From Candidatus Poribacteria bacterium (GTDB lineage Bacteria; Poribacteria; WGA-4E; JAJDTR01), in the NCBI GenBank assembly GCA_022827055.1, contig JAJDTR010000042.1, positions 1 through 64,000 on the forward strand: a stretch of DNA of 64,000 nt, given 5' to 3'. This document shows positions 1,780 to 62,045 of the stretch, one piece after another. The notes beneath the pieces are model-generated. The model did not search any database and was not told where the DNA came from. It worked only from the letters and a program-made list of their open reading frames with translations. The number at the start of each line of letters is the position of its first letter. Position 1 is the stretch's first letter. The position numbers were made by a program, and so were the translations under genes.

Positions 1780-1950
1780 TATCTGCTATCGCCCGGGATT
1801 AACTATCGATCAAAGAACGAATAGATCAAGCGACCGATTAGAATCAAAGAACGAATAGTGAGTGCGATAGAAATCCCACTGCGATAGTAAGTCCTGCTCA
1901 CTATCCGTTCAGTTGATCGTTCGTTGTCCGCTCACCTGATCGCTCCCATG
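1780..1950. repeat. cluster of GATC-unit modular repeats
   Basis: Several units in both orientations: GATCAAAGAACGAATAGATC, ATCAAAGAACGAATAGTGAG followed by TGCGATAGAAATCCC, then the reverse form CTCACTATCCGTTCAGTTGAT. This is the longest concentration of the repeat in the first 10 kb and occupies much of the gap between the STAS gene and rpsA. No gene is seen in 1395-2082. Confidence 0.65.
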
Positions 1951-8765: not shown

Positions 8766-8811
8766 AGTCGCGCACGAATAATGGTGGGCGGGGGACTTAC
8801 TATCGCACTAA

Positions 8812-8848
8812 GATTTCTATCGCGCTCCTTATCCAGTCGCTTGATCCC
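8812..8848 (-). repeat. GATC-unit modular repeat
   Basis: TTTCTATCGCGCTCC followed by TTATCCAGTCGCTTGATCCC, a single-unit copy between convergent genes. Confidence 0.6.
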
Positions 8849-10612: not shown

Positions 10613-10717
10613 TGAATCGCTTGGATGGAGAACACAAACCACGTCTTTTTCTGACTCATCTTGGCGCAGAAAGGCTCTTTCGCCTTGGCAATAAATTGAC
10701 TACGGAGTATTTTTGAA

Positions 10718-10975
10718 ATGACCTACGTGATTGCGGAACCGTGTATTGATGTTAAAGATACTGCTTGTGTTGATGTATGTCCCGTCGACTGCATTCACCC
10801 GACATCATCGGACCCTAGATTTGAAGAAGTCAACCAGCTCTTCATAGAACCCGAAGAATGCATTGACTGCGGAGTGTGCGAACCTGAATGTCCGGTAGAG
10901 GCGATTTTCATGGAAGAGGATGTTCCGGAGGAATGGACACACTTTACGCAACTGAACGCGGATTATTTCCAATAA
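10718..10975 (+). CDS. 7Fe-type ferredoxin, copy 1
   Basis: An 85-residue electron carrier beginning [17 protein letters not shown]. The first cysteine group is C-x7-C-x3-C-x3-C, in which the position normally filled by a second Cys (CxxC) is Val. The second group is the full CIDCGVCEPECP. This pattern fits a [3Fe-4S][4Fe-4S] ferredoxin of the Azotobacter FdI/Thermus type, though redox centres are inferred. It is very similar to the next gene at 11324, which arose by tandem duplication. It may serve the NADH-module-less complex I encoded 36 kb away, but that link is speculative. Confidence 0.9.
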   Translation: MTYVIAEPCIDVKDTACVDVCPVDCIHPTSSDPRFEEVNQLFIEPEECIDCGVCEPECPVEAIFMEEDVPEEWTHFTQLNADYFQ

Positions 10976-11323
10976 TAATCCGACGAATTTCGGGCGGGCA
11001 CCGAATTTGACTGTCGACCGAGAAACGGGGATAGGTCCTCATCCGGGAGTTGGGTCGTCGAAAGAATCGGCGCGGACCAACACGACCGTCGGCATGACTT
11101 ATTGAGAGTGAGGATTTTGTCGACCTCTGGCGGGAATTCCCGATAATCTATTGTCTTCAGATTCTAAATAGATCGCTGCACAGTTGTTGATAGGACTTTC
11201 CCCGTAGCGGGTGTGAAATGATTGTCTTGCTTAGAATGGGGACATGGAGAAGGAAATCGCGAACACCTATTGGCGTAGAAGGCTTCATTTGCCTTGGAAA
11301 CAAGTCAAACGTGACGTGTTGAA
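10976..11323. other. spacer between ferredoxin copies, part of the duplicated unit
   Basis: No gene. The sequence resembles the region after the second copy (11585-11760): blocks such as GAAACGGGGA, CCGGGAGT, GTCGAAAGAAT and ACCAACACGA occur in the same order at an offset of about 600 bases. The upstream flanks also match (CTTGGCGCAGAAAGGCT-type versus ATTGGCGTAGAAGGCT). Confidence 0.6.
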
Positions 11324-11584
11324 ATGACCTACGTGATTACGGAACCGTGTATTGATGTAAAGGATACTGCTTGTGTTGATGTGTGCCCCGTGGACTGCAT
11401 CCACCCGACGGCATTGGCTGAGGAGTTCGAGAACGTGAACCAGCTCTTCATAGATCCTGAAGAGTGCATTGACTGCAATGTTTGCGAACCTGAATGTCCG
11501 GTAGAGGCGATTTTCATGGACGAGGATGTTCCGGAGGAATGGGCTCACTTTACTCAACTGAACGCGGATTATTTCCAGCAATGA
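11324..11584 (+). CDS. 7Fe-type ferredoxin, copy 2
   Basis: 86 residues, nearly identical to the ferredoxin at 10718. The differences are concentrated between the two cluster motifs ([11 protein letters not shown] versus SSDPRFEEVNQ) and at the cluster ([12 protein letters not shown] versus CIDCGVCEPECP). Start-to-start offset is 606 bases. It has the same missing second Cys in the first cluster. Both copies are intact, so both are probably functional; the changes near the second cluster could tune potential or partner choice. Confidence 0.9.
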
Positions 11585-11941
11585 TGCGTCGAATCGCAGG
11601 CGAGGGCGGAGATTGACTGACGACGGCGAAACGGGGACGGGTACCTAGCCGGGAGTAGGCTCGTCGAAAGAATTGGCATGAACCAACACGAGTGTCGGCT
11701 TGATTCATTGCGGTGAGATTTTGTCAGCCGCGGGTGGGAATCGCCGATTATACCTTGTCTTCCGGGTGTAACCCGTTCGTTGCAGCGGGTTGATGTGCCT
11801 ATTTACCGATTTCTCCTATTTGTGTCGGTTAATCATGTTTTGCGGCGAAAAGAGGTAGGAAAGTGCCGTGACAGCGCGCGCCGGTCCCCGTCCATTTCAA
11901 AGCGCCAATCGCAGACAACTCAGCCTCGTGCGCTATTCTCC
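11585..11941. other. downstream half of ferredoxin duplication, no gene
   Basis: Contains the second copy of the conserved non-coding segment (see 10976-11323). Nothing else is recognised before the convergent stop of the next gene. Confidence 0.5.
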
Positions 11942-13877: not shown

Positions 13878-14008
13878 GAGCGACCTCCTGGTCGCGACCC
13901 GCTTCCTGCCGCGGTTGGAGTGGTATAGTCTTGACCACCCATTAAATGAGTGCTACCATCTTCCGATAAGATCAAGCGAGTGAACAACGAGCGCGATAGA
14001 GATTCCCT
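13874..14008. repeat. REP-like palindrome and GATC-unit repeat
   Basis: 13874-13897 is a forward GTAGGAGCGACCT-type element that begins inside the stop region of the preceding gene. 13970-14008 is GATCAAGCGAGTGAACAACG followed by the AGCGCGATAGAGATTCCC cap. Confidence 0.7.
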
Positions 14009-14756: not shown

Positions 14757-16691
14757 ATGAATTTCAGGCAGAAAATCACGTTCAGTCTTTTGCTCACCAT
14801 CGTTTTGGGCGGCGTTGCGTTTGCGCAGGTTGTCGACATTCCCGATCCGAACCTTCGCGCCGCCGTCGCCGATGCGTTGGGTATCCCGCATGGCGCCTCC
14901 ATCACGCAAGCGGACATGCGCCAGTTAACGTCACTTAACGCTAAGAACCGTCAAATAACAGAGCTCACCGGCTTGGAGTATGCCACCAACCTGACCGAAT
15001 TGCAACTGGGCGAAAACCCGATTACAGATATCAGCCCGTTGGCGCATCTCACAGAACTCACGCGCTTGCGGCTTAACGACTGTTGGACGATTGACAATAT
15101 TAGCCCGATAGCACATCTCGCACAACTGCAAGCGTTAGATTTAGACCGCAACCTTATCCTTGATATCGGTCCGCTGGCGGGATTGACGGCGTTGGAATCG
15201 TTAGATCTTCGCTCCAATCAAATCGAAAACCTCAGTCCGCTTGCCAACCTGACGCAACTCATCCGATTGCTTCTGAACAACAATAAGATTAAAGATGTGC
15301 GTCCACTTGCAACGCTCACGCGGTTGGAGATTCTTCACATTCACGCGAACAGCATCACGGATCATAGCCCGCTTGATGGATTGTCGCTGACTGATTTCCT
15401 CTACGACCAAGTGTGCGAAATGGAACCACTGCCACTTCAACCACGATTGGTCAATCGAGATTACCCGAACGTTGCCGGCGCCAACTGGCTTTTCGGACAA
15501 GATCCACGCATCGATTTATCATATGGCGACCTTTTCCAGATGCATCCGCGCGCCGACGGCCGGTTGACGGGCGACTTTGAACGCGGGTTACAGGAGCGGG
15601 ATGAATACATCGCGGCTAATCCGAATGCGGTGTTTTTAATGCATATTCTCGAGATGAGGGGCGCGGCAATCGATTACTGGGGAAAGGAATGGCCGTATTG
15701 GGTTCGGGATTCGGCCGGGAACGTTGTCTTCGAAGGGGGGCCGGGAGGAGCGGCACTGGTGGATTTCACACATCCCGAGGTGCAAGATATCATTGTTCAG
15801 CAAGCGATAAGTGTTTCGAGATGCGGGCTTTTCGACGGCATCATATTCGACTATTGGAGGGACGAAGATGATGTGCTACACGGTTATGTCAGCATTGAGG
15901 CACAACTTCAGGCGCGGTTAAACATCGTGCGGCGAATACGCGCGGCAACACGCCTCAACTTTCTCATCCAGGTCAACTCGAATTGGGCTATATTACCGTA
16001 CACGGGACCTTACATCAACGGTCTGTCGATGGAGACAGGCATTCCGAACTGGGGCAAGACGCCGGAGGAGCGCGAAGTAATGGTGACGGGAGTCGAAAAA
16101 ACGGTCATTTGGGCCGAGGAGAACATGCGCGAGCCTCGTATAAACGCTATTTTCGGGGAAGCGTTTCCGGCCGATGAGGAACCGAGATCGGCTAATTTTC
16201 AATGGGTTCGTTTGCTGACGACGTTAAGTTTAACTCATTCCGACGGGTATGCAATGATACAACACCTTGGTGTTCCCAGGGGCGACGACCAGCATTGGTA
16301 CGATTTTTGGGATGCAGACTTGGGTCAACCGGTGAGCGCGAAAAGGCAACTGTATCAAGACATAGAAGGTCTTTACATCCGTGAATTTACGAACGGGTGG
16401 GCGGTCTACAACCACAGCGGGGAAGCGCAGGTCATCATGTTGCCGGAGGAGGTACAGGGCGTCGCCAGTGGTTTGGTAAACACGGAGCACGCCCTAGCTA
16501 ACCTTGACGGAGAGATGTATCTGCGAATCAAACCGAAGAATCCGGCGGATGTGAATGGAGATGGCGTGGTGAATATTTTAGATTTGACGATTATTGCCCG
16601 AGATTTAGGGACGGATAGGTTGGAGGGGGATGTGAACGGAGATGGGGAAGTGAACATTCTTGATTTGGTGTTTGTGGCGAATGAATTCTGA
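14757..16691 (+). CDS. secreted LRR / TIM-barrel hydrolase-like / dockerin protein
   Basis: 644 residues. A signal peptide (MNFRQKITFSLLLTIVLGG, cleaved near AFAQ) is followed by internalin-type leucine-rich repeats at about 60-220 (ITDISPLAHLTELTRLRLN and four to five more). A TIM-barrel-like region at about 240-560 has FDGIIFDYWRDEDD, whose Asp/Glu cluster resembles the active site of putative glycoside hydrolase-like families. The C terminus has two dockerin calcium loops, DVNGDGVVNILDLTI and DVNGDGEVNILDLVF. A GGAGAAATCA ribosome binding site precedes the ATG. Probably an exported polysaccharide-active or adhesion protein; no substrate can be named. Confidence 0.8.
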   Translation: MNFRQKITFSLLLTIVLGGVAFAQVVDIPDPNLRAAVADALGIPHGASITQADMRQLTSLNAKNRQITELTGLEYATNLTELQLGENPITDISPLAHLTELTRLRLNDCWTIDNISPIAHLAQLQALDLDRNLILDIGPLAGLTALESLDLRSNQIENLSPLANLTQLIRLLLNNNKIKDVRPLATLTRLEILHIHANSITDHSPLDGLSLTDFLYDQVCEMEPLPLQPRLVNRDYPNVAGANWLFGQDPRIDLSYGDLFQMHPRADGRLTGDFERGLQERDEYIAANPNAVFLMHILEMRGAAIDYWGKEWPYWVRDSAGNVVFEGGPGGAALVDFTHPEVQDIIVQQAISVSRCGLFDGIIFDYWRDEDDVLHGYVSIEAQLQARLNIVRRIRAATRLNFLIQVNSNWAILPYTGPYINGLSMETGIPNWGKTPEEREVMVTGVEKTVIWAEENMREPRINAIFGEAFPADEEPRSANFQWVRLLTTLSLTHSDGYAMIQHLGVPRGDDQHWYDFWDADLGQPVSAKRQLYQDIEGLYIREFTNGWAVYNHSGEAQVIMLPEEVQGVASGLVNTEHALANLDGEMYLRIKPKNPADVNGDGVVNILDLTIIARDLGTDRLEGDVNGDGEVNILDLVFVANEF

Positions 16692-16721
16692 ATCACGGAT
16701 TAAACTGATTACACGGATTGA

Positions 16722-16912
16722 AAATCTCTATCGCGCTCGCTAACCACTCGCTTGATCGTCCTTCACTGCGCAAATGTATAGCATTCCAACGACCGAAAGT
16801 CGGTAAGCCTCCGTAGGATGACACGCGGAAGCTTATACCATTTCCATATATTAACAGCGCATTAATGGCGTCAATCAAGTCTTTCCAAAGCGGGGCAAGA
16901 TGCCCCGCCTAC
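16722..16912 (-). repeat. GATC-unit repeat and GCGGGGCA-type palindrome
   Basis: 16722-16757 is AAATCTCTATCGCGCTCGC followed by TAACCACTCGCTTGATC. 16890-16912 is the reverse of GTAGGCGGGGCATCTTGCCC, a GTAG-headed palindrome family also at 24227, 25077 and 25113. No gene is seen in 16692-17010. Confidence 0.7.
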
Positions 16913-18843: not shown

Positions 18844-19488
18844 TATGATAGAGGTTGCCGGGGTTCTGTTGACATTTCATCGTCACGACAATATTGAGGG
18901 AGACATAAATAGGTGTGCTCCGTATAATCAAATTGGGTAGAGCAACCAAGTTTGTATAAAGTAAGGGCGGGGCAACCCCGCCCCTACGATTGAGACAGAG
19001 TCTGCGTTCAATGGAATTGCGGTATACATAGGCAGCCGTAGGGGTTGGGTTTCCCAACCCATTGGGCGAGGATGGATCTCTATCGCGCTCCCTGTTCAGT
19101 CGCTTGATCTCAGTTGATTCTCGCCCCTACGATTACGGATGATTCGTAGGTTGGGTTGAACTAGGACAGCCAAAAAAAACCGACCTCTGTTTTCCATCTG
19201 GTTCCGATGTTTGATTGCACCAAAAAGTCTGAGGTCTAGTGAAACCCAACGAAGAACACGTTATCGGAAACATGGGTGTCGGGTCTCACTTACTCCAATC
19301 GCAAGACGAAGTTTTTTTGAGTCGAATTCTCTTTTGGCGTTGACATGTATCCGTGCATTGCCATTCAGCCCAGCCTTCAAGTCTTAGTCCCCATAGTCAA
19401 TGGACTTCCATTACATAGAAATGGTATAATTACAAACCGAACTGAGTAAGTCCGCAACTAACTCAATCCCAATCGAGGAGGCTATACC
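18844..19488. other. repeat-rich gap, no gene
   Basis: Holds a reverse GTAGGGGCGGGGTTGCCCCG palindrome (18965-18987), a GTAGGGGTTGGGTTTCCC palindrome (19038-19060), a GATC-unit repeat (19073-19109), and GTAGGTTGGGTTGAAC near 19148 paired distantly with GTGAAACCCAAC near 19240. Nothing protein-coding is seen. Confidence 0.65.
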
Positions 19489-28941: not shown

Positions 28942-28988
28942 AAAAAACGCCTATCACTCCAGTCCCTAGGGACGAAAGCAATAGGCGT
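28942..28988 (-). terminator. T-box intrinsic terminator before pheS
   Basis: On the minus strand ACGCCTAT-type arms (28981-28988 and 28947-28954) enclose a second hairpin GTCCCTAGGGAC (28962-28973), and the stem is followed directly by TTTTTT. This is the terminator alternative to the antiterminator containing the T-box sequence. Confidence 0.85.
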
Positions 28989-29240
28989 CAACTTCCGCGG
29001 TACCACCCTAATTAACAGATTTCAAAATCTGTTCACTTTATTGATTAGTCAATTACGGTGACCTTCCGGCGCGAGCCTACTTTGCCAATTTGGCGTTCAA
29101 CTCGGCAGCTCCGGGATGAAATTCGGCGATTGGTCTCGAAAATGCGCTCACAGCCGACGACGCATTCTCTCTTTTCGAGACATTCCTACCGCTTACTGTG
29201 TCCCTTCAAAGCCTTTAGCGAAATTTCTTCGATAGTTCCG
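28942..29240 (-). promoter_or_regulatory. T-box riboswitch controlling pheST
   Basis: The conserved T-box AGGGTGGTACCGCGG is seen on the minus strand at 28995-29009, followed by the terminator at 28942-28988 and then pheS. Upstream a long leader of about 230 bases can hold Stem I. A UUC triplet followed by A (minus strand 29120-29117), within CCGAATTTCATCCCGG, is a reasonable Phe specifier but I could not fold Stem I with certainty. In known T-boxes uncharged tRNA pairs with the specifier and the T-box bulge to favour readthrough. The element starts right after rplT, so it may also govern readthrough from the infC operon. Confidence 0.9.
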
Positions 29241-33251: not shown

Positions 33252-33796
33252 TCAGGTGTTTCCTCTTCCGCCATCTTCTCAAGAATTTAACGTAACTGTT
33301 TTGTTCAGCCAAAACGAGTGGCAATATTGGTTTGGCAGTGTATTGCACCTGACAATCAGCTGCCGGCTTTCCTGGATTATTTGTGGGAGGGGCATCTTGC
33401 CCCGATATTCCGCGTTCACGAAAAATCAACTCCCTAAAAAACCATGCAATGAAAATCTACTTTCGGTAGGGAATCGCTCCTGCATCGGGGCAAGGGGGAT
33501 CTCTATCGCAATCCATTTGCACCAATTGGAGCACCGCGATTGCACCGCTCGGTGCGGCGTCCAAGCGCATCTACAAAGCGCAATGCGTGTTTGTGCGGGG
33601 TCGTAACTCATTCCGTACGACAAACTGACCCATAGTCGCAAGTTTAATGCCTTTGACGCCGGATTGTGATTCAATCTTAGCAAACCTTCCCGACTATCGT
33701 CAATAAAATGCGCCTTCGTACTTGTCTCTGTAGGAGCGATCTCCAGGTCGCGATTCCCCACTAAAACGAAAAAAACGAAAAATTATCCACAAATGG
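33252..33796. other. gap with repeats, no gene
   Basis: Contains a degenerate GGGAGGGGCATCTTGCCCCG palindrome (33384-33404), a cap-only fragment GGGGGATCTCTATCGCAATCC (33494-33514, without a unit) and a forward GTAGGAGCGATCTCCAGGTC element (33730-33753). Confidence 0.6.
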
Positions 33797-38269: not shown

Positions 38270-38458
38270 TTCAATCTCCTTTGCAAAGGTTCTATTGGTG
38301 GTGCTAGTATACCAAACATAGGACAAAATCGCAAATGAGAAAACTGACGACGACGATAGAATTCCTTGGTTTCCCCGCCCGCCACCATTCCAGGTCGCGC
38401 CGCCCTGCCCCCGACCGTGGGCGCTTGCCCAAATTACTTCATCGTACCGGTCACTAGC

Positions 38459-38518
38459 CATCAAGCGAGTGATTAGCGAGTGATCAAACGAACGAACAGT
38501 GAGTGCGATAGAGTTCCC
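38459..38518 (+). repeat. GATC-unit modular repeat, two units
   Basis: CATCAAGCGAGTGATTAGCG, then GATCAAACGAACGAACAGTG, then the AGTGCGATAGAGTTCCC cap. Unit spacing is again about 23 bases. Confidence 0.7.
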
Positions 38519-38629
38519 GTAGAGATCCTCTGACCACTGGCCACTGCGTTTTCCCCTTCCACTCTTCTTGTCATCTTCCCTTCCCCACTCACCACTACAT
38601 TCCTCCCGCCGATTCCGCCGTATTCGGCG

Positions 38630-39403
38630 CTACCTTGTCCCACCCGGAGCATCCGCAATGGCCGCTATATCCCAAATGAGTACAACACCATCCGCACTAC
38701 CACTTCCCATTTCGCTGCCATCCGGGCTGAACGCCACGCTAACGACATTGCTTGTATGCCCCGTGAGAGTTTGTTTGTGTGTACCCGTTGAGATATCCCA
38801 CAGACGTATGGAATTGTCCATACTCCCGCTTACCAGCGTACCCCCGTCGGGGCTGAACGATACGCTACCGACTCCGCCGGTATGCCCCGTGAGAGTGCGT
38901 TTGTGCGCGCCCGTCGCAGTGTTCCAAAGCCGAATCTCGGCGCCAAAAATCGAGCCGCCGTCGCGTTCGCCGTCACTGCCGCTCGCTAGGGTTTGACCGT
39001 CGGGGCTGATCGATACGCTCAAAACCCAATGCGCATGACCCGTAAGTGTTCGTTTGTGTTCCTCTGTCAGCGGGTTCCAGAGACGAACCGTATTGTCCCT
39101 GCTTCCACTTGCGAGGATGCCTCCGGTCGGGCTGAACGCAACGCTGGTGACGTCTGCCGTATGCCCCGTGAGAAACGCGGTCTCCCTATAGCCTGATGTA
39201 TCGTAGATTCGTATGCCTCCGGCGTGCGCGATAGCCAGGCGTTCCCCATCTGGAGAATACGCAAGATCAAAAATATCGCTGGTGCTGAAGCGCGCTTTGA
39301 CGCCCTCCGGTAAATTCGGCGGAACCTGAGCGAGAATGCCGTGCGGACACACGGCTGGAATGAGCAGACACATGAAAACAGTTGCAATCGTTGTGTTTCC
39401 CAT
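38630..39403 (-). CDS. exported WD40-repeat protein
   Basis: 257 residues from ATG 39403. Signal peptide (MGNTTIATVFMCLLIPAVCP, ending GILAQ), then five to six WD40 repeats with clear GH...WD pairs: TGHTADVTSVAFSP, TGHAHWVLSVSISPDGQTLA, TGHTGGVGSVSFSPDGGTLV, and closing TRLWN/IRLWDI/LIWDI strands. Seven blades would need more sequence, so the propeller may be closed by the N-terminal strands or be incomplete. Proteins of this kind are numerous in poribacterial genomes. Confidence 0.8.
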   Translation of the reverse strand: MGNTTIATVFMCLLIPAVCPHGILAQVPPNLPEGVKARFSTSDIFDLAYSPDGERLAIAHAGGIRIYDTSGYRETAFLTGHTADVTSVAFSPTGGILASGSRDNTVRLWNPLTEEHKRTLTGHAHWVLSVSISPDGQTLASGSDGERDGGSIFGAEIRLWNTATGAHKRTLTGHTGGVGSVSFSPDGGTLVSGSMDNSIRLWDISTGTHKQTLTGHTSNVVSVAFSPDGSEMGSGSADGVVLIWDIAAIADAPGGTR

Positions 39404-40574
39404 GATGGATGTCCCTTTTCTCCAAATTCGGTCCGTGGCTATGGACGAATTCTCCCCAGTGCGGGTAAACACGATTAGCAAAAGTTAAAGGCCGTTTGAA
39501 AAGTACAGCTCGCAAGGTGCGATCAACCAAATTTCCTCCTGCAAATGCTAGTAAGCTTCAACTTATCCCTAGATTGTAAAGGTCTCGGACTTGAGTGTCA
39601 ACAGACAAGGCGGGAAAATGTCTCGCCTTTATAATTCGCTCTGTTTATCTTGTTTAGGTATGCTCAAGTTGTCAATTTGCTCGAGACTTGGACATGAATC
39701 AAAAAGCCGATGCGAACGGAATCCGCGGCAACTCCTTCGACAAATCATTCGCTAATCTTGGCCAATGTCAACTCTTCGAAACACCACAAAAAAAGCGAGG
39801 GGCATTACACCCCGCGCCGCCGACAAGAAATCCAACCCTTCACTCATACTTGCCGCTCAAGTAACACTCGACATTGCGCTCCGCTGGAGCGCGGAGATCG
39901 GACGCATCACGATTCTATTGACATTGCACACCTACGGAGTGCAAGAGGTAGATAATCTCTCTCAAGTAACACTTTCTCAAGGTTAACCAAGGAGTGAAAA
40001 ACGAGTGTTGCTTGTTGAAAGAATTATTCCGACAAGGATAATGGGATGCTACCAACATCTTGCGCGTTGACCTGAAAGAATCCGCCGTTAGCGTGTACAA
40101 GTACACCCTGCTCGCAACCCTCGCAGCGAATTCGTTCCGACCATCCCAATTCGCCGAACGACTCCGATTTGTGTAATGCCCCACAGACTTTTGTACCACA
40201 AGGGATCTCTATCAGGACTTTCTATAGGGATTGGCTATCGCACTCATTATCCATTCGCTTGATCCTTCCTTAATCAGTCAGTTGATCACTCGCTATCCAC
40301 TCTTTTGATCCTACAAAATAAGCAATTCTCAGCAGCGTGGAGTATAGATTGTGATTCGTGTCCGCAAACTAACAGTTTGCGGTACATTGGGTGAATTGCT
40401 GATGGTTACAGTGTTTGCCGAATTAGCAACATCAAAGTATCAAGGCGCCCTAGTCAATCTCCATAGTTTGGTAGATGTAATGAACCAATGAACTGAATCA
40501 AAATGGCGTTGATGAATCAACGAAACCGTGATAACATATTAAGCAGTCGTCTAGGCAAAGGAGACAAATCAATC
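39404..40574. other. 1.2-kb gene-poor gap with repeats and a decayed gene fragment
   Basis: Holds a decayed sorting-domain fragment (40050-40151) and a two- to three-unit modular repeat (40203-40310). The rest shows no convincing gene. Confidence 0.6.
40050..40151 (-). pseudogene. remnant of a C-terminal sorting (FlgD-like) domain
   Basis: The minus strand encodes NWDGRNEFAARVASRVYLYT followed by LTADSFRSTRKMLV, which aligns over its whole length with the end of the protease at 49389-51086 (YWDGRNQQGQRVASGVYFYS, LTAGEFTTTRKMLV). No upstream NPFNPETW part remains in frame, so only the last about 34 codons of a lost secreted protein survive. Confidence 0.75.
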
Positions 40575-40856
40575 ATGGATTTTGCATCATGGAGCCCCTC
40601 ACATACCATCCTTGTGCTTGTTGTTATCATTGGTTTCATTGGGCAGGTTGCCGTCCTGTTCCATCGCACTTCAAGACTGGAGAAACGTGCAGACAAGACA
40701 GACAGGCGCATTGATGAACTCAGAACCGAAATGAATCATCGACTTTCGGATGTACAAAGCGAAATTCGGGATGTCCGAAAAGAAATGGCTGACGTCCGAA
40801 CCGAAATCAGCAAACTCAACCAGAATCATATCGATCACCTGACCCACCACAACTAA
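40575..40856 (+). CDS. small membrane-anchored coiled-coil protein (QNH family, member 2)
   Basis: 93 residues from ATG 40575. N-terminal hydrophobic helix (ILVLVVIIGFIGQVAVLF), then a coiled coil of repeated RTE/RDVRKEM heptads (DELRTEMNHRLSDVQSEIRD), ending KLNQNHIDHLTHHN. It matches in plan and tail the proteins at 36996 and 62091. An AAAGGAG lies 13 bases upstream, somewhat distant. Function unknown. Confidence 0.65.
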   Translation: MDFASWSPSHTILVLVVIIGFIGQVAVLFHRTSRLEKRADKTDRRIDELRTEMNHRLSDVQSEIRDVRKEMADVRTEISKLNQNHIDHLTHHN

Positions 40857-41408
40857 AATCCCACCCCTGTCTCCAGCCTTCTATACACATGCCGCGCCTC
40901 TAGTGCTAATGCCCTTTTTCGTTTTCCCGCTCCCTCACCTCCTCGTCTTCCAGCCCCCGCTTACGCATCACGTCTTTTATCCTGTAAATCATTGAATCCT
41001 GAACATCCTGATTCAGACAAATTACACCTCCCACCGCGTAGTTGCCGAATGAACCAATGCCCCGAAAAGTATTCTTCATAGAAATCCCCCTCACCCGATA
41101 ATTTGTGGGAGGCGGCATCTTGCCTCGACCAACTTTCTTTAGGGCGCGATAATCTGAAGGAACCTGGTCCGACGTAGGGGCGATCAATGGAGATCAAACG
41201 AACAAATAGTGAGTGCGATAGCAATTCTCTAAACATCTGTCTCTCCCGCACGAAACGCCCCGCCGACCCAATTCCATTTCCCATTGCCGATTCCCGGGCA
41301 TCTATGCCATAATCATGAAAACAGAATTAATGATATTGATATGTACACTGACTTCACTACGATTGAGAATCCTTGAGCTACATATCAAATGTAAGAGGTG
41401 GCTCTACG
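40857..41408. other. gap with repeats, no gene
   Basis: Has a degraded GGGAGGCGGCATCTTGCCTCG palindrome (about 41105-41125) and a GATC-unit repeat (41192-41226). A 93-codon frame on the minus strand (40906-41187) runs through the repeats and is not credible as a gene. Confidence 0.55.
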
Positions 41409-42269
41409 ATGTCTAAGGAATCGGAAAACGCAGCACAGGAGGACCATGACGACGAGCAGGCCCTCAAATATATGCTAGATATAGGCAGCAGCGGTGGTGG
41501 CAATTTAGCAGGTGCGTGGCTGGGATTGCTACTCGGCGGTCCAAGCGGCGCTTTGGTCGGAGCGTTTTTCGGAGGCGCGGCAGGTAAAGCAATCGAAATT
41601 GCGTTGAGGGTGGTTAGCCAAGAGATTTGGGCGCGACAGTTGAGCACAAGAGAGAGAATGCGCGTTGGTACTGTGCTTGATGTCGTGATCACCGAGATAC
41701 GTCGGCGGGTAGAAGCTGGTGAAAGTGTACGCGCGGATGGCTTCTTTAATGAGAACGAAACTGGAAGATCTGATGCAGAGGAAGTCGCAGAGAGCGTGCT
41801 ATTGAAGGTTCAGCGAGAACCAGAGGAAAAGAAAATCCCCTACATGGGTTATTTGCTTTCAAGCATCGCCTTCGATCCGGAAATAAGCGTACACATGGCG
41901 CAACAACTCACGAAGATCGCCGAACAGCTTACCTACCGCCAATTATGCATCCTGAAGCTATGCGATGTGAAAGATAAATACGGGTTGCGTCGTAAAGATT
42001 ACCGGGACCAGATTGTCGACGAAAGAAACATCTATCAAATACTTTACGAGTGTGCTGAACTTGATAGCAAGCAATACATAAACTTCCGAGGTAAAGCGGA
42101 TCTTCATAGCAAGGAACGTAAGGACTTCGGGGCTACGATCGACGGACTCACCAGCCCAACACCTAGCCATATGGCGCTTCAAGGAATCGGAGAAGATCTT
42201 TTCAATCTCATGAAACTGTCCTTGATACCAGATGCTGACATAGCCCCAATCGCAGAGCAATTGAAGTAA
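41409..42269 (+). CDS. hypothetical protein with glycine-rich membrane-like segment
   Basis: 286 residues from ATG 41409 (GAGGTGG upstream; a TTG at 41373 is an alternative). After an acidic start, residues about 25-66 form a glycine-zipper-like hydrophobic stretch (GGNLAGAWLGLLLGGPSGAL, then VGAFFGGAAGKA) that could insert in membranes. The remainder is helical and charged (YLLSSIAFDPEISVHMAQQL, LTYRQLCILKLC). I do not recognise the family. A glycine-zipper head on a globular body occurs in some abortive-infection proteins, and the neighbours are defence-like, but that is only suggestive. Confidence 0.65.
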   Translation: MSKESENAAQEDHDDEQALKYMLDIGSSGGGNLAGAWLGLLLGGPSGALVGAFFGGAAGKAIEIALRVVSQEIWARQLSTRERMRVGTVLDVVITEIRRRVEAGESVRADGFFNENETGRSDAEEVAESVLLKVQREPEEKKIPYMGYLLSSIAFDPEISVHMAQQLTKIAEQLTYRQLCILKLCDVKDKYGLRRKDYRDQIVDERNIYQILYECAELDSKQYINFRGKADLHSKERKDFGATIDGLTSPTPSHMALQGIGEDLFNLMKLSLIPDADIAPIAEQLK

Positions 42270-42490
42270 ATTACCGTCGCGTAACAACGTCTTTCGCGAC
42301 CATGTGACATTGTGCAGCATTCTTTCTGGGTGCGATGGAAGGAATGAGCAATGACGAATCAAGCGACTGAATAAACATAAAACAAGTGGATGTCAAGTTA
42401 GATAGTAAATCCTGATAGAAATCCTTTCATCTTGTTCCGATTCCGTCCCAACCGCGGCGATATGCCCCAGGTCTTTGAAAATCCGAAGAC

Positions 42491-43699
42491 TTACTTCCCT
42501 ATCCTATCCGTCACATATTCGCGCCACCAATCTCGCCACTTCCACTCATTGTCAGCGACATTAAACACCCAGAACAGTTGATCTAACAATGCAATAAGAA
42601 CCCTTGAAAACCCTTCCGCAGTTCGTATTTTTCGCGGTAAACAACGAGTCGAAGCCAATATTTCTGATTCCGCTGACTGCCGTCGTTCTACGGCCGCCGG
42701 TTGTAAATCACTGGAAAACAAGAGTTTTTCGCCACTTACTTGCGCCAACCTAACAATCATCTCGACATTTCCTGAATATTCGCATTTTGTAAAGAAATTC
42801 TCCGCAATACCTAAGAATCCGTAGATTTTTGAGGCTATTTCATCAGCACTGAGATATTCTTCACCTCGATTGTCGTCATCACGGGGCAAATAATTGTTAG
42901 GCATCGGTTTCCGATGTAACCCTTCCCTGCAGTAAATGATGCCGTGTTCATTCAATTCCCAGAAGCATAGCCAATCCCCTTTTTCCACATGGAAGGTCCC
43001 ACCTGTAACCCTTTTTGTACTCAAGTCAATGTTTCTCGCCGTAGATGGAATCAACGGGTGTTGTACCATGTATTCATATATCTCTGGCGGTGCAATTATA
43101 GGACGATATGGAAATACGGGATGCGCACATATTGCCATATTGGGACGTTCTAACTGAGATCTGTAGCTATTCACCCGCACGCGCTCCTCAATGCGGTCAA
43201 GTATCCGCCGATTCATTCTCCGCGGTTCTTCGCGCCGTTTCAGCATATATTCGATTCTGTCAATTTCCGCTAGTTCATACGGCGGTGTGACACTGCCGGT
43301 ACGGACATACACGCGCGTGGCATTCTGAATAGCATGAGGCGCTTGTTGGCTTTCTTCGACCCGCACAACCACGACGACCCTGTCCCTCTCCCCCGGCACA
43401 TCGCACATGATGACTTCAGGTATAATCGCAGGATAAATTCCATCTGTTGCACTCTGTTCGATTTGTTCGCGAATTCCGCCTTCGTTAGGTATCCCTTGAA
43501 TATCAGGTTTTGCCCTGCTGTTTTTATCTGTCTCAACACCGACAATGAGTACCCCGCCCTGAGTATTGGCGAATGACGAAATGATTTTAGGTATGTGTGC
43601 TATCTCACTTTTGTATTCGACTCGCACCCCTTCGCCCCATTCTTGGCAGAATTCCACGATATCGTCAAATTCAATCTCGCTCGCTAGCTTTGTAAACAT
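42491..43699 (-). CDS. Schlafen/AlbA_2-domain protein
   Basis: 402 residues. Residues about 15-130 are an AlbA_2 (Schlafen-type, COG2865) domain: the entry EGVRVEYKSEIAHIPKIISS with the FANTQGGVLIVGVE motif, then VVVVRVEESQQAPHAI and RVYVRTGSVTPPYELAEIDR. The domain is found in nucleic-acid regulators and in some defence systems. The C-terminal two-thirds has no recognised fold (EWKWRDWWREYVTD at the end). It faces the 286-residue gene and precedes, on the same strand, nothing closely spaced. Confidence 0.85.
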   Translation of the reverse strand: MFTKLASEIEFDDIVEFCQEWGEGVRVEYKSEIAHIPKIISSFANTQGGVLIVGVETDKNSRAKPDIQGIPNEGGIREQIEQSATDGIYPAIIPEVIMCDVPGERDRVVVVVRVEESQQAPHAIQNATRVYVRTGSVTPPYELAEIDRIEYMLKRREEPRRMNRRILDRIEERVRVNSYRSQLERPNMAICAHPVFPYRPIIAPPEIYEYMVQHPLIPSTARNIDLSTKRVTGGTFHVEKGDWLCFWELNEHGIIYCREGLHRKPMPNNYLPRDDDNRGEEYLSADEIASKIYGFLGIAENFFTKCEYSGNVEMIVRLAQVSGEKLLFSSDLQPAAVERRQSAESEILASTRCLPRKIRTAEGFSRVLIALLDQLFWVFNVADNEWKWRDWWREYVTDRIGK

Positions 43700-44006
43700 A
43701 TTCTACCTATCAAATCAATCTGTCAGACAACCTTAATGTTGCGCTTTCATAGGTGTTAGTGTGAGATCGGTAATCATCATGTCGCCGAATCCCCTGCGCC
43801 TAATATTGCCGACCGGTCTCATATAGCGCCTAGGGTGTGGCAGGTGTCGGTACACACCGATGCAACTGCTTCCATGTGTCCCTTAGCCGCGCAACACAGT
43901 GTTACTTCACAGCCAATGCACACGTTGCAGAATTCGGCAGATTTTGCGCCTTGAATTGTGATTGTTCCTTAACCTAGAACCGGGAGTTCATTCAATCCTC
44001 CGCAAT
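43700..44006. other. gap, nothing recognised
   Basis: About 300 bases between two minus-strand genes. I see no repeat of the dispersed families, no tRNA-like fold and no clear promoter. Confidence 0.4.
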
Positions 44007-45653
44007 TTAAGCGGAACTTTCGCTGGATTCCAGTGCATTGACTAGTGGTCTAAGTCGATCTTTGAGGTAATCTCTGAACCTATTATGGTCTTCAATTCGA
44101 GCAACGACTATTTGCTCATAATCCCTTCTACTTCGGCATTTGAGCGTTTCCGCTATCACATCGAATACCCCAGTTTCGCGAAGCGGATATCGCGCTACAA
44201 GCCCATCTAAATCTCCATGTTGAAGGAATTCGGTGTATCGGTCCAACTCTTCGTGATACTCCGTTTCGATCATACTAAAAATCTGCTGAGCTGGATCTTC
44301 TTTTATAGATTTAGCGTCTGGTAGGCTGGACATAACGCGGTCTCTTAACTGGCACTCGCATCGCCGTGCTGCCATTCTCTCTGCGAGTTCCTGAGTCTGA
44401 AGTTTCTTGATGGCCTTCTGCCTAGTTACCCGAATGAGTTCCTCCGCGTCACAACCGAAGGACCTGGCCTGCCACTGTCCAACCACCTTGATAGCTTCAG
44501 AGCAATAGTAAAGCCCTTCGACCGAACACACATCGAGTGCAACCACGCCTTCTTTCGCCAGCTTCGCTACATTTTCCTTGCTTCGGTTGTCTCCGTCTAT
44601 GACACCAAGCGCTTCAATGCGATGTAAGTTTGGAGCACTTCGCAGACCTCGTACCGCGCGTTCCACTTCTTGGCATGTTCCCTTCGATATCACCGAAACA
44701 TCAGGGAATAGGGCAGCGTATAACGGACGATCTAAGCTTGTTTGTTCGCCTTCCACGAAGAGGATCCTCCTTCTGCCCCCTAAGATTGCAATCAAAAGTT
44801 CTTCTGGTAATTCCGAGTTAGGCTCCATCTCTTCGGCATCCCAGGCTACGCACTCGTTGCCGCTCCACTGGCATGAGTGTAGAATCAGAATTTGCACATC
44901 AGGATTGGCAACAGGCAGCATGACTTCATGAGTTGAAATGACAAAAGTGCAGTCTTCTCGTCGTAAATCGAAAAGTGCCGTCAGAAATGGCGCAATGATA
45001 GACCGGTGAAGGTGTCTTTCCGGTTCGTCAATAAAAAACACGGTTCCGGGTTCCGCCGTTATCACTTGAGCGGCAATAATCATCGCGCTACGCTCGCCGT
45101 CTGACATTTGTGCAATGTCATAAGTCGCACCCCCTTCACGTTTTGCAACAATAGACCCATCGTCGGGATACTCCAATTCAACATTGAGGCTGCCGCGCCC
45201 AAGCAGCTGATTCATCAAATCGAATGGTGAAGGTGTTTCGGCAAGCATTGCCCGTGCCTCGGAGACGGCATCCTTCCTCATGAGCCGAACGATGGATCGG
45301 TTGCCCGCGTTCTCTTTAGCTCCCAAGTCATACAGCACAGCAGACAAATGTTGCGTCGCATGTATATCTCTCCACCGCGCATCTTGTCTTGAGGCATATG
45401 AATTCCTGTTTTCCTCATATTCTTGGCGACTTCTAGTCGTTAAATTAGTAGCTCCCGAGTCCAACCAGGTTTGCCGGTGTGCAGCTATCCACCTCACTCG
45501 TTTGTCGTTACTGTGCCTCCGCACAAACTGGTGAATCAGTGCCGATTTTCCAGATCCGTTAGTACCTACAATGTACAATACGTCGCTAGTTTTAAGTCTG
45601 AGGTCGATTGGTTCGTCCGATATTCTATTGATTGTCCAAAGTATTTCCGCCAT
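44007..45653 (-). CDS. ABC-type ATPase with C-terminal TOPRIM-like domain (OLD/PARIS-like)
   Basis: 548 residues from ATG 45653, AAAGGAGAA eight bases upstream. Walker A GTNGSGKS (30-37), signature-like MSDGERSAM (183-191), Walker B VFFIDEPERHLH (205-216) and switch STHE (240-243) give an SMC/AAA_21-type ATPase. From about 295 a TOPRIM or DUF4435-like domain begins: RRILFVEGEQTSLDRPLYAA (Glu 301) then LGVIDGDNRS (Asp 353/355). This order is that of OLD nucleases. It also resembles fused AriA-AriB proteins of the PARIS anti-phage system. Assignment to PARIS is inference; the fold is well supported. Confidence 0.85.
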   Translation of the reverse strand: MAEILWTINRISDEPIDLRLKTSDVLYIVGTNGSGKSALIHQFVRRHSNDKRVRWIAAHRQTWLDSGATNLTTRSRQEYEENRNSYASRQDARWRDIHATQHLSAVLYDLGAKENAGNRSIVRLMRKDAVSEARAMLAETPSPFDLMNQLLGRGSLNVELEYPDDGSIVAKREGGATYDIAQMSDGERSAMIIAAQVITAEPGTVFFIDEPERHLHRSIIAPFLTALFDLRREDCTFVISTHEVMLPVANPDVQILILHSCQWSGNECVAWDAEEMEPNSELPEELLIAILGGRRRILFVEGEQTSLDRPLYAALFPDVSVISKGTCQEVERAVRGLRSAPNLHRIEALGVIDGDNRSKENVAKLAKEGVVALDVCSVEGLYYCSEAIKVVGQWQARSFGCDAEELIRVTRQKAIKKLQTQELAERMAARRCECQLRDRVMSSLPDAKSIKEDPAQQIFSMIETEYHEELDRYTEFLQHGDLDGLVARYPLRETGVFDVIAETLKCRSRRDYEQIVVARIEDHNRFRDYLKDRLRPLVNALESSESSA

Positions 45654-45712
45654 GATATATTTCTCCTTTGTAGAAGGATCATACTGCAATCCATATCGCT
45701 GAAAATTGACCT

Positions 45713-45757
45713 GTCATGACAATCGTCTCACAGTGAATTTTAGATTTATGTCATGAC
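45713..45757. promoter_or_regulatory. two GTCATGAC palindromes upstream of the ATPase gene
   Basis: Identical 8-bp palindromes at 45713-45720 and 45750-45757, 37 bases centre to centre (about 3.5 helical turns), 60-100 bases before the ATPase start. The first is extended to TGTCATGACA. A possible operator pair for a dimeric repressor; no regulator is identified. Confidence 0.4.
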
Positions 45758-45823
45758 GAAAAAGTATCCAATCACACGCGTCGGGCGACCATATAAATCG
45801 TTTTAACGGTACCACGTACAAAA

Positions 45824-45864
45824 AAGGGCGCCGATTCGCAGGCACACTGCGAGTCGCCACCCTT
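45824..45864 (-). terminator. strong hairpin followed by T6 on the minus strand
   Basis: AAGGGCGCCGATTCGCAG pairs with CTGCGAGTCGCCACCCTT with one or two bulges; on the minus strand six T follow at once. It could end an antisense or small RNA on the minus strand, since no minus-strand gene reads into it. On the plus strand only CTTTATT follows. Confidence 0.6.
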
Positions 45865-45887
45865 CTTTATTGAATACACCTTTATGC

Positions 45888-45917
45888 TTGACTTTGAAAA
45901 TTGAGCTATGGTAGTAT
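45888..45917 (+). promoter_or_regulatory. predicted promoter of a small RNA
   Basis: TTGACT (45888-45893), 18 bases, TAGTAT (45912-45917), plus strand, directly upstream of the 45924-46014 hairpin-rich stretch. Confidence 0.5.
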
Positions 45918-45923
45918 ATTCCA

Positions 45924-46014
45924 TGCTAACGTGATATGCGTTACTCGTTTTCTTCGCCCAAATACGAAAAAACGACTCTGCCCTAACTGGTTGCCGCCGG
46001 TTAGGGCATTTTTC
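45924..46014 (+). ncRNA. candidate small RNA with intrinsic terminator
   Basis: About 90 bases with no ORF. In order: a small hairpin AACG...CGTT (45930-45944), a strong hairpin CGTTTTCTTCG/CGAAAAAACG (45947-45975) with an 8-base loop, and a perfect 9-bp terminator stem TGCCCTAAC/GTTAGGGCA (45979-45987, 46000-46008) followed by TTTTT. The first two hairpins share the CGTT and cannot both form fully. With the promoter at 45888 this makes a complete small transcription unit. No known RNA family is recognised. Confidence 0.5.
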
Positions 46015-46204
46015 TTGTATTCAATTCGAGTTTAATATACAATATCTGGTGCAATTCACGCAAGCCAATCTTCCTCACCTTCGCAGTCTTGCACATGAAC
46101 ATGCTTTTCCAATGTGGCGTTATTCGGGAAACTCAAACTCTACCCTAGCGAAAGAATCAGTAACACAATTGTATCCTTTCCATGGTACAAAAGGAGAAGA
46201 CACA

Positions 46205-46468
46205 GTGATTGAAAAATTCGACAAGCGTTACTTGAAGATGCGCAGACAGGTAAAACTAGAGCAAGATCAAACCTACACCCAATATTTCAATAACTTGCTG
46301 CATGAAATTGCTGCGTTTATTGATGACAAAGTGCCCGATGGCGTTGACATTGAGGTAACATGCGACGATGACCACTGGAGTCTGCGCGTGTCATATCATG
46401 CAAAGAACGAATTACGTTCTACAGGCACCTCTTATCCACGAAAAAAGTTTGATTTGACTGAGGAATAG
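46205..46468 (+). CDS. small hypothetical protein
   Basis: 87 residues from GTG 46205, which has AAAAGGAGAAG at 46190-46199; the frame is open upstream to 46049 but lacks a site. Charged and mostly helical in the first half (DKRYLKMRRQVKLEQDQTYT), then DGVDIEVTCDDDHWSLRVSY strands. Not recognised. It sits just after the candidate small RNA and is divergent from the ATPase gene. Confidence 0.5.
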   Translation: MIEKFDKRYLKMRRQVKLEQDQTYTQYFNNLLHEIAAFIDDKVPDGVDIEVTCDDDHWSLRVSYHAKNELRSTGTSYPRKKFDLTEE

Positions 46469-47156
46469 GGGGAGTCGACTACCTATTAGTTATAAACTTC
46501 TCGCGCATCACCTATGTGGCTCATCCTACCGGGCTCGCGAGTTGTGGCTGTAATCTTGGAATTCCTTAGGTCTCCACAAATCCGCTCTCCAACCAACCTC
46601 CCACCGCGCCCAATTCATTCCCTTCCCCAAACCTCAGAAAAACCTTTACATCTGTCAAGTTATACATCTCCTATTGTGTGTCAAAACAAACCGTGCACAC
46701 ACTTCTATCTCCAGAGTGTAGCATCAAGACAATCTCTCAAGTGGAAGACGTTTCACCTCCATGGACACTCCCAATCACCGGCTTTCTTGTTTTACCTCCA
46801 GCTCTGTCTAACCGCAGTGAGTTGGGTTTCGCCAGCTATCTGTATGTAAGCACGGTTATCGGGAAGAATCCTCCCCACGAAACTTTAAGGGGCTTGGTGG
46901 TTAATTGCTCAACCCAACCTACATCAATGACGCTATTTCCGGCAGGGCATCTTCCGCTTGGCGGTGTATTCACGGAACGAGCCGTAGCGTGTACGATAGT
47001 TGCGGCATACGGCGTATGCCTACTACTTTGCACATCTTTTTTGTTGCAAACACTCCCAATCTGATATATAATTTAGGCTGTTTCAATTTGGGTGCAGCGT
47101 CTTGATGTCCAATCTTGTGAAGTTTTTCACAATCCTATTGAAATATAGGGGAAACC
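46469..47156. other. 0.7-kb gap, no supported gene
   Basis: A reverse GTAGTAGGCATACGCCGTAT palindrome (47004-47026) lies near its end. Open frames here are short and overlap on both strands; none has a ribosome binding site or family resemblance. Confidence 0.5.
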
Positions 47157-51086: not shown

Positions 51087-51197
51087 CACCATTTCGCTTG
51101 AATAACAGCGCAAAGAGTAAAATGACTCTTTCGTTTAGACTTACACGGTTACGCGGTGCACCACCTAGAAGGATTAAGCGACTGAAAAGTGAGCGCG

Positions 51198-51350
51198 ATG
51201 GTGATCCCGGAAGATTCCGTGTCGGATGATGAGCGTCAAGCATGGTTGAATCTATCTATGCAGGGCTTGGAAGAAGCATACGGGGAGGACGAGCCGGAGT
51301 ATTCCACCGACCTTATCAAAGAGGTAAACCCCCACTATGAGGGAAGGTAG
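51198..51350 (+). CDS. small orphan antitoxin-like protein
   Basis: 50 residues: MVIPEDSVSDDERQAWLNLS, then MQGLEEAYGEDEPEYSTDLI and KEVNPHYEGR. This pattern recalls short antitoxins that precede MazF/PemK-type toxins (for instance ...AYGxDEPEYSxDLIKEPNPxYE). No toxin follows; the next gene is nuoD. It overlaps the end of a modular repeat (51172-51209). Recognition is from memory of the pattern. Confidence 0.45.
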   Translation: MVIPEDSVSDDERQAWLNLSMQGLEEAYGEDEPEYSTDLIKEVNPHYEGR

Positions 51351-52651: not shown

Positions 52652-52938
52652 ACTCGACTTTGTACAGTTGAGTTATACTCCGCACTGTCAGAAATTGCGT
52701 CTTTTGTAGGAGCGATCTCCAGGTCGCGACCCTTGTACGAGGGAACTTCGATTCCCGACCTAATGGTGCTACGTAAGTCCTATTAGAAACAATTATCATC
52801 TGGAAAAAAAACGTAATAATACCCAACGCAATGTATAGTATGTAGGGTGGGCACTGCCCACCAGCCTTTGAAAGCGCAAGATGGGTCAATCGAACCAAAA
52901 CCGAGTGCGATAGAGATTTGCTGACCACTGTTTTCAAT
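52652..52938. other. gap with three repeats
   Basis: Forward GTAGGAGCGATCTCCAGGTC (52706-52729), forward GTAGGGTGGGCACTGCCCAC (52842-52862) and a degenerate modular repeat with cap GAGTGCGATAGAGATTTG (52886-52918). Confidence 0.65.
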
Positions 52939-54223: not shown

Positions 54224-54886
54224 ATGAATAAGTATTTCTTCAATATCTACAAAGCGCTCTATACGGTGCTCATCGGCATGCGCATTACGTTTAAGCAGAT
54301 GTTCCGGCACGCGGTAACGCATCAGTATCCCTATCAACGTCCGTTCGAGAAGAAGCGGAATGTGCGCGATATTCCCAAGGGTTATCGGGGGCAACTGTTC
54401 AATCGGATTGAGGACTGTATCGGCTGCAAGAAGTGCGAAATGATCTGTCCGGTTGACTGCATCGCCATCACCACCCAAAAGCTTCCCAAAGGTGAACGGC
54501 TTTGGGATAGTATGAACGTCGTCCATCTCAAGGATCGCAGCGAGGTGGTGGGTTTCGTCGAAGGCGACGAGAAGGTAGCTCCGGACACGACGGTTACGAT
54601 TAAAACCCGCGATGAGCAAACGCTGACCATCCCGAGCGGAGACATTGATCGCATCGTCGAACGCAAGCCCGTCATCTTCTACCTCGACAAGTTTGACATC
54701 GACATGTCGCTCTGCATGTACTGCGGGCTTTGCACCGAGGTATGCCCGACCGAGTGCTTGATAATGTTTGATGATATGAAGGGCATCGAGTATTCGACAT
54801 TTGACCGAATGGAGTTGGTGTTTCCGTTCGCCAAACCTGAGATGTACAAGGATGACGCTGCTGTCGAGGCGGAAGAAGCCACGTAG
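54224..54886 (+). CDS. nuoI: complex I subunit I with enlarged middle
   Basis: 220 residues from ATG 54224 (GGGAGG nine bases upstream). Two [4Fe-4S] motifs are intact: EDCIGCKKCEMICPVDC and MSLCMYCGLCTEVCPTEC. The stretch between them is about 80 residues instead of about 35 because of an inserted segment (ERLWDSMNVVHLKDRSEVVG through IPSGDIDRIVERKP) that looks like a small beta domain. The conserved KYRGQ/GYRGQLFNRIEDC context is retained. It transfers electrons to NuoB. Confidence 0.93.
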   Translation: MNKYFFNIYKALYTVLIGMRITFKQMFRHAVTHQYPYQRPFEKKRNVRDIPKGYRGQLFNRIEDCIGCKKCEMICPVDCIAITTQKLPKGERLWDSMNVVHLKDRSEVVGFVEGDEKVAPDTTVTIKTRDEQTLTIPSGDIDRIVERKPVIFYLDKFDIDMSLCMYCGLCTEVCPTECLIMFDDMKGIEYSTFDRMELVFPFAKPEMYKDDAAVEAEEAT

Positions 54887-54952
54887 TGGCTAGTGGCCAG
54901 TGATTAGTGAAAACCTAAACTACACTTTGCACATCTGTAGGGTGCGCACTAC

Positions 54953-55069
54953 GATCAATCGAGTGAATAGCGAGTGATCAACCGAGTGGATAACGAGGGA
55001 TCAACTGAACGAATAGTGAAGGCGATAGAGATCCCCGAGCGTAATGTAGGAGCGATCTCCAGGTCGCGA
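54953..55069 (+). repeat. three-unit modular repeat plus REP-like element
   Basis: Units start at 54953, 54976 and 54999, exactly 23 bases apart (GATCAATCGAGTGAATAGCG, GATCAACCGAGTGGATAACG, GATCAACTGAACGAATAGTG). The cap GCGATAGAGATCCC begins at 55022, again 23 bases on. A forward GTAGGAGCGATCTCCAGGTC element follows at 55046-55069. The rest of 54887-55281 has no gene. Confidence 0.85.
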
Positions 55070-61904: not shown

Positions 61905-61970
61905 AAGCTGGCGGGGTATAAGGTTGTGATGTAAAATTGTTCCATTGCGCGTAGGAGTCGTTTTTCACTG

Positions 61971-62045
61971 GGAACTCTATCGCATTCGCTATGCACTCAG
62001 TTGATTCTAATCGGTAGCTTGATCGCTATCTGCTCCATTGATCGT
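61971..62045 (-). repeat. GATC-unit modular repeat, three degenerate units
   Basis: GGAACTCTATCGCATTCGC then units CTATGCACTCAGTTGATT, AATCGGTAGCTTGATCG and CTATCTGCTCCATTGATCG, read from the cap side. It follows nuoN closely; a GTAGGAGTCG fragment lies at about 61951. Confidence 0.6.

Follow-up and report, generated by a model that had tools for sequence, protein, structure and literature searches.

A short hairpin element inserted into other hairpin repeats and into its own copies in Candidatus Poribacteria

The array at 54953 and related copies

The window (i.e., the whole stretch of 64,000 nucleotides analyzed here) is contig C121 of the 5.57-Mb genome G000 of a Candidatus Poribacteria bacterium; the genomes compared in this study are draft MAGs. 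Positions 54953 to 55036 (+) carry three 23-nt hairpin units, which start at 54953, 54976, and 54999, and a cap (GCGATAGAGATCCC at 55022) that follows 23 nt further, exactly as an initial reading of the letters (the sequence-only reading) had claimed. Each unit has the form ATC-AA-XX-GA-YY-GNATA-ZZ-GA-WW-GC-GAT. Unit 2 (CC/GG and GT/AC) and unit 3 (CT/AG and AC/GT) are fully paired, and unit 1 forms three of its four pairs. A GTAGGGTGCGCACTACG^ hairpin repeat hosts the array in its right arm, and a remnant of this GTAG host repeat (family R1) occupies positions 54936 to 54952 (+). Heptamer-like short runs (TAGTGGCTAGTGGCCAGTGATTAGTG) lie nearby at 54880 to 54905 and are found beside elements elsewhere too. 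Other features of the window include a T-box leader (28965 to 29218, −; 105 bits), which is its sole Rfam match, and a tandem duplication of a ferredoxin-like gene segment (10713 to 11104 and 11319 to 11710; 82 to 90% identical).

Copies are present, in both orientations, at all 12 of the further places that had been listed. Single-unit elements lie at 17 to 54 (−; within a GTAGRCGGG..CTTGCCCCGCC hairpin repeat of family R3), 13970 to 14007 (+), and 16720 to 16757 (−), and degenerate ones at 51172 to 51209 (+) and 52884 to 52921 (+). A two-unit array with a cap and a truncated cap (GTAGAGATCC) occupies 38459 to 38528 (+), and a three-unit array with one full and two truncated caps (i.e., a balanced AAABBB order) occupies 40203 to 40310 (−). 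The element at 8793 to 8846 (−) has one unit and two 3′ modules and lies within a GTAGGGTGGG..CGCCCACC hairpin repeat (R1). These copies had been described as having one to three units; the unit number does vary, but several are nested rather than tandem. The nested element at 1808 to 1945 (+) has two 3′ modules, with inverted units after them, 19072 to 19119 (−) lies within an outer 5′ module, which it entered at the XX-GA-G site (offset 10), 41182 to 41229 (+) is nested in an outer 5′ module at the same offset and has a divergent cap, and 61969 to 62043 (−) has nested 5′ modules. Likewise, the cap recurs, as had been noted, but it is not strictly fixed (it reads GCGATAGCAATTCT in the copy at 41192), and truncated caps are common after arrays. 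A cap-only remnant adjoins a CTTGCCCCGATGC repeat at 33495 to 33510 (−), and an empty R2 hairpin repeat (TGTAGGAGCGATCTCCAGGTCGCGA; 52705 to 52734, +) has the same flanks as the filled copies L066:- and L069:-.

In the window, the cap matched 18 times at up to 3 mismatches (shuffle mean, 6.3; largest, 15) and the unit 22 times (shuffle mean, 2.3; largest, 6). Genome-wide, the cap at up to 1 mismatch gave 463 matches in G000, compared with 0 in the reversed control, and unit plus cap gave 607 matches in G000 and 834 in the congener G001, again with 0 in the reversed control. Since units matched at 2 mismatches include about one-fourth to one-third chance matches in coding DNA, strict sets were used instead, and detailed analyses cover samples of 1.25 to 2 Mb rather than every copy. 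The copies had been described as lying only between genes; this holds for 247 of 256 strict copies (96%) in 1.25 Mb from two genomes, where a rough ORF call puts the intergenic share of the DNA at 26%. They occur in every gene context, and a bias in gene strand is unclear (87 versus 68; P = 0.15).

Across the phylum, matches were found in 7 of 85 genomes; these belong to genus g1, to G004, and to a small group in which between one and a few contigs were positive. The core of the G004 elements is as in genus g1 and the 3′ tail is mostly TCTT (GCGATAGTCTT); host family R1 is absent from G004. Copies in G014, G080, and G081, on one to a few contigs each, may be binning errors. The element-bearing contigs of G014 are C72, C83, C91, and C116, and R1 repeats, which are otherwise abundant only in genus g1, occur on at least C72 and C116; all four contigs are probably misbinned. 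Exact-pattern matches across a genome contig collection were all from Ca. Poribacteria among the matches listed, and the element was not found in the virus contigs searched. Our literature searches found no earlier description in Poribacteria.

Covariation and the functional strand of the hairpin

In the dinucleotide pairs X/W and Y/Z, a change on one side is offset by a change on the other (i.e., CT occurs with AG, GT with AC, GG with CC, and AC with GT). Among 292 strict units, the Watson-Crick shares at the four pairs are 68, 80, 89, and 64%, compared with 35, 42, 36, and 42% expected by composition; G.T is retained at two of the four, with A.C mostly depleted. Looser matching gave covariation z-scores of about 10 to 15 for 300 distinct sequences. 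An alignment of 90 elements was scored for the structure ATC/GAT, AA/GC, XX/WW, GA/GA, and YY/ZZ with a pentaloop. In this alignment, 93% of cells are paired (75.8% when shuffled) and 127 cells have both sides changed (29 when shuffled), and the signal collapses when partners are slid. RNAalifold, unaided, recovered the same fold less the outermost A-U pair. A first P1 model (GGATC/GATCC) showed no covariation and gave way to ATC/GAT, a pairing that the lineages share while their 3′ tails differ. Two mismatches, GA/GA and AA/GC, hardly vary: GA is retained in 283 to 287 of the 292 units, and the AA/GC bulge corresponds to alignment columns 6-7 and 25-26 (almost constant in A1). Because the fold energy is unimpressive on its own (z about −1.5 as RNA and weaker as DNA), the case for the hairpin rests on covariation. 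The functional strand is fixed, since GA/GA and G.T make sense on that strand only.

Such features would also be expected of a structured RNA element, transcribed in untranslated regions and selected as RNA for stability, termination, or protein binding, with mobility being incidental. Tandem GA and GNRNA-like loops are familiar RNA motifs, and the unit has both; G.U is allowed in the covariation while A.C is disfavored, and RNA folding recovers the fold. However, the copies use all gene contexts with no clear orientation preference to the flanking genes, no Rfam covariance model matched the element, and the positions are not conserved between species. We consider this account unlikely.

Insertion into hairpins and the origin of 23-nt arrays

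An empty-like site that matches the joined flanks exists elsewhere for 154 of the 355 elements in about 2 Mb. In a clear pair, the empty site at window positions 52668 to 52755 (...TTTTGTAGG-A-GCGATCTCCAGGTCGCGACCC...) corresponds to the filled site L069 (...TTCTGTAGG-[ATCAA...GATCCC]-GCGATCTCCAGGTCGCGACCC...). The element is inserted as a whole unit, mostly inside other hairpin repeats, several of which are GTAG-tagged and REP-like. Six host hairpin families contain 88 filled and about 243 empty copies, with no inverted insertion; the 88 filled hosts may not all be independent events, since some repeats could have spread when already filled. The left junction is regular (G, less often A, then ATCAA), and the target is usually G^C. 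The right end, which is less regular, is TC followed by CC, TT, or CT, and 1 to 4 target bases are replaced. Junctions are narrowly repeated in R2 (16 of 19), R4 (7 of 7), and R5, and none of the filled/empty pairs has a target-site duplication. Of 134 outermost copies, 44 have a GTAG motif in the 30 nt upstream, and this motif is part of the host repeat, not of the element; R4 and R5 hosts, as well as the G004 copies, are often without GTAG.

The element is also inserted into its own copies at fixed sites. The periodicity of the 5′ modules peaks at 23 nt (82 cases), followed by offsets of 17 (28), 10 (9), 12 (8), and 18 (8), with none in reversed sequence. These offsets correspond to internal sites in the cap (G^CGATAG), at the loop end (TAG^), before YY (GAG^), and at the loop G. 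Trailing truncated caps follow 42 of 74 arrays of at least 2 units and 33 of 295 single units (odds ratio, 10; P = 1e-15), and several arrays without a standard remnant carry degenerate ones such as CCGTAG. The array at 54953, which has no truncated cap downstream, is an exception to this pattern. The numbers of 5′ and 3′ modules match more often than when shuffled (59% versus 43%). Runs comprise 2 or 3 units, and single units dominate. Serial self-insertion at G^CGATAG in the element's own cap explains why the spacing is exactly 23 nt and why truncated caps accompany it: every cap insertion adds ATCAA-hairpin-GCGATAG...TCC, leaving the old cap as (C)ATAGNNATCC and one full cap in place. The covarying, strand-specific hairpin, the arrays from serial self-insertion into the cap, and the copies inside other hairpin repeats had all escaped the sequence-only reading, whose interpretation is partly supported.

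Arrays of variable unit number inside palindromes, which are prone to template switching, might instead suggest passive spread by replication slippage, template switching at quasi-palindromes, and gene conversion with no dedicated enzyme; the tracking of replication polarity by element orientation would suit such a process as well. Template switching, however, would erase the GA/GA and AA/GC mismatches, which are kept as described above. Slippage is hard to square with whole-unit insertion at many unrelated loci, repeated junctions, a single orientation, and matching truncated caps. Passive spread is thus improbable in our judgment.

Turnover of the element is rapid. The window is syntenic with contig C22 of G001, with genes 80 to 90% identical, and almost no element positions are common across this synteny: only the element at 13970 is found in both species, and its G001 locus carries an extra outer layer (GATCAACTGA...CATAGAAATCC). 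In the same comparison, about 0.7 kb in G001 (L095:3104-3787) takes the place of an 8.6-kb stretch of the window (38345 to 46996), and the gene at 14757 to 16691 is missing from the syntenic region. Binding-site arrays retained for a host protein (i.e., a nucleoid or replication factor) could account for the high copy number, the intergenic location, and the regional strand polarity described below. Yet the positions differ between the congeners, 78 of the 85 genomes of the phylum are without the element, and the signal lies in single-strand pairing and not in duplex sequence. This function is very doubtful.

Candidate mechanism and known repeat systems

The regional polarity of element orientation is strong (P = 7e-9). 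Orientation is anticorrelated with intergenic GC skew (287 versus 160 elements; contig sign-flip P = 4e-4) and with gene-corrected skew at fourfold sites (234 versus 139; rho = −0.35; P = 0.04). Orientation was uncorrelated with raw GC skew when all contigs were taken together (rho = 0.08), and there is a weak opposite link between orientation and gene strand (P = 0.04). The anticorrelation with skew hints at a lagging-strand route, as for single-strand transposons.

We propose that the repeat is an approximately 36-nt, nonautonomous, REP-like mobile element (ATCAA-[17-nt hairpin]-GCGATAG-NNN-TCYY) that spreads as a folded single strand, probably by means of an HUH enzyme of the RAYT/IS200 kind. 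Its substrate would be single-stranded DNA handled by an HUH tyrosine enzyme, either RAYT (TnpA-REP) or an IS200-type TnpA, and the candidate enzyme would recognize the strand-specific hairpin and its invariant AA/GC bulge. RAYT genes occur in all three main carriers, where IS200 transposases are also present. Both gene types are equally common in relatives without the element, so the presence of the Y1/RAYT family was rejected as a marker of carriers; no enzyme tracks the element, and the carriers form no single clade in a Y1 tree. Within 600 bp of Y1 genes in G000 and G001, there are 0 to 4 elements, compared with background means of 0.26 to 0.53, with few RAYT genes contributing. At two G001 loci (L249:5050-6400 and L250:4950-6250), RAYT genes have inverted R2 GTAG hairpins (TGTAGGAGCGAYCTCCMGGTCGCGA) on both sides. 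The arrangement is that of a candidate Poribacteria REPtron; filled R2 copies adjoin the gene, but only some of the flanking R2 copies are filled. In G004, an IS200-type transposase gene (L240:6480-9100) lies amid many GCCCCAGCGGGGCGAAAGGT hairpins (R4), several of which contain the element. No target bases are deleted or replaced in classic IS200/IS605 insertion, and the replacement of 1 to 4 of them here counts against that route. The lack of a GTAG of its own, and the R4 and R5 hosts without GTAG, count against a REP-type explanation. Retromobility of an RNA copy might fit the precise left and sloppy right junctions and the RNA-like covariation, but it is highly improbable and was rejected, since RVT_1 had no match in the carriers G001 and G004 and one subthreshold match in G000.

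The sequence-only reading had placed the repeat in no family known to it. There is indeed no Rfam match, but the element is not wholly outside known kinds, since REP elements and pneumococcal BOX are close in behavior. REP elements, which comprise GTAG and CGTC superfamilies, are tied to RAYT/TnpA-REP (PMC3733652, PMC8266576), and their occurrence inside other palindromes is on record (PMC3733652). The Poribacteria element resembles them in several respects: it is an imperfect hairpin of 20 to 40 nt, it occurs between genes in hundreds of copies and has a single functional strand, its stem changes compensate one another and include G-T pairs, and its AA/GC bulge (as in group-2 REPs) has the polarity of the E. 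coli REP. It differs in carrying neither a GTAG nor a CGTC tag itself, in its second GA/GA mismatch and extended 3′ module, and in entering several different hairpin repeats as well as itself. TnpA-REP requires the conserved A12A13-G26C27 bulge of the E. coli REP (PMC8266576); this parallel is our best mechanistic lead, though not proof of kinship. Pneumococcal BOX (boxA-boxB(n)-boxC) has copies inserted into one another (PMC3049150) and shares the variable number of a middle unit, constant ends, predicted stem-loops, and mutual insertion. In contrast to BOX, the Poribacteria element has 23-nt units and lacks a separate start module, and its arrays come from serial insertion that leaves truncated caps. 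Like MITEs, the element is small, nonautonomous, structured, and mobile, but it has no terminal inverted repeats beyond ATC/GAT (its ends are ATCAA and TCYY) and no target-site duplication. The regular spacing recalls CRISPR, but the units are contiguous hairpins without spacers, as had been claimed, and single units dominate; CRISPR and simple tandem repeats were both ruled out by the missing spacers and the nested structure.

Within the limits of our searches, no description turned up of an element that combines hairpin-in-hairpin targeting with self-nesting and an array mechanism that can be traced. More tentatively, it is possible that the element represents a new class of mobile hairpin that targets hairpins, its own included. 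Its bracket-like nesting would yield long branched single-strand structures, and it would be moved by an HUH-type activity with a G^C rule and a short target replacement undescribed for RAYT or IS200/IS605.

In vitro, folded single strands are cut by TnpA-REP, and, to our knowledge, natural insertion records for REP-type repeats are few. The mechanism of REP-type spread becomes testable here, with filled and empty copies in the hundreds, rules for both target and strand, and nests that record the order of insertion, and the covariation shows which features of a small DNA hairpin are important to natural selection. The nested copies in these sponge-associated bacteria therefore provide an unusually readable record of how folded single-stranded DNA may move.
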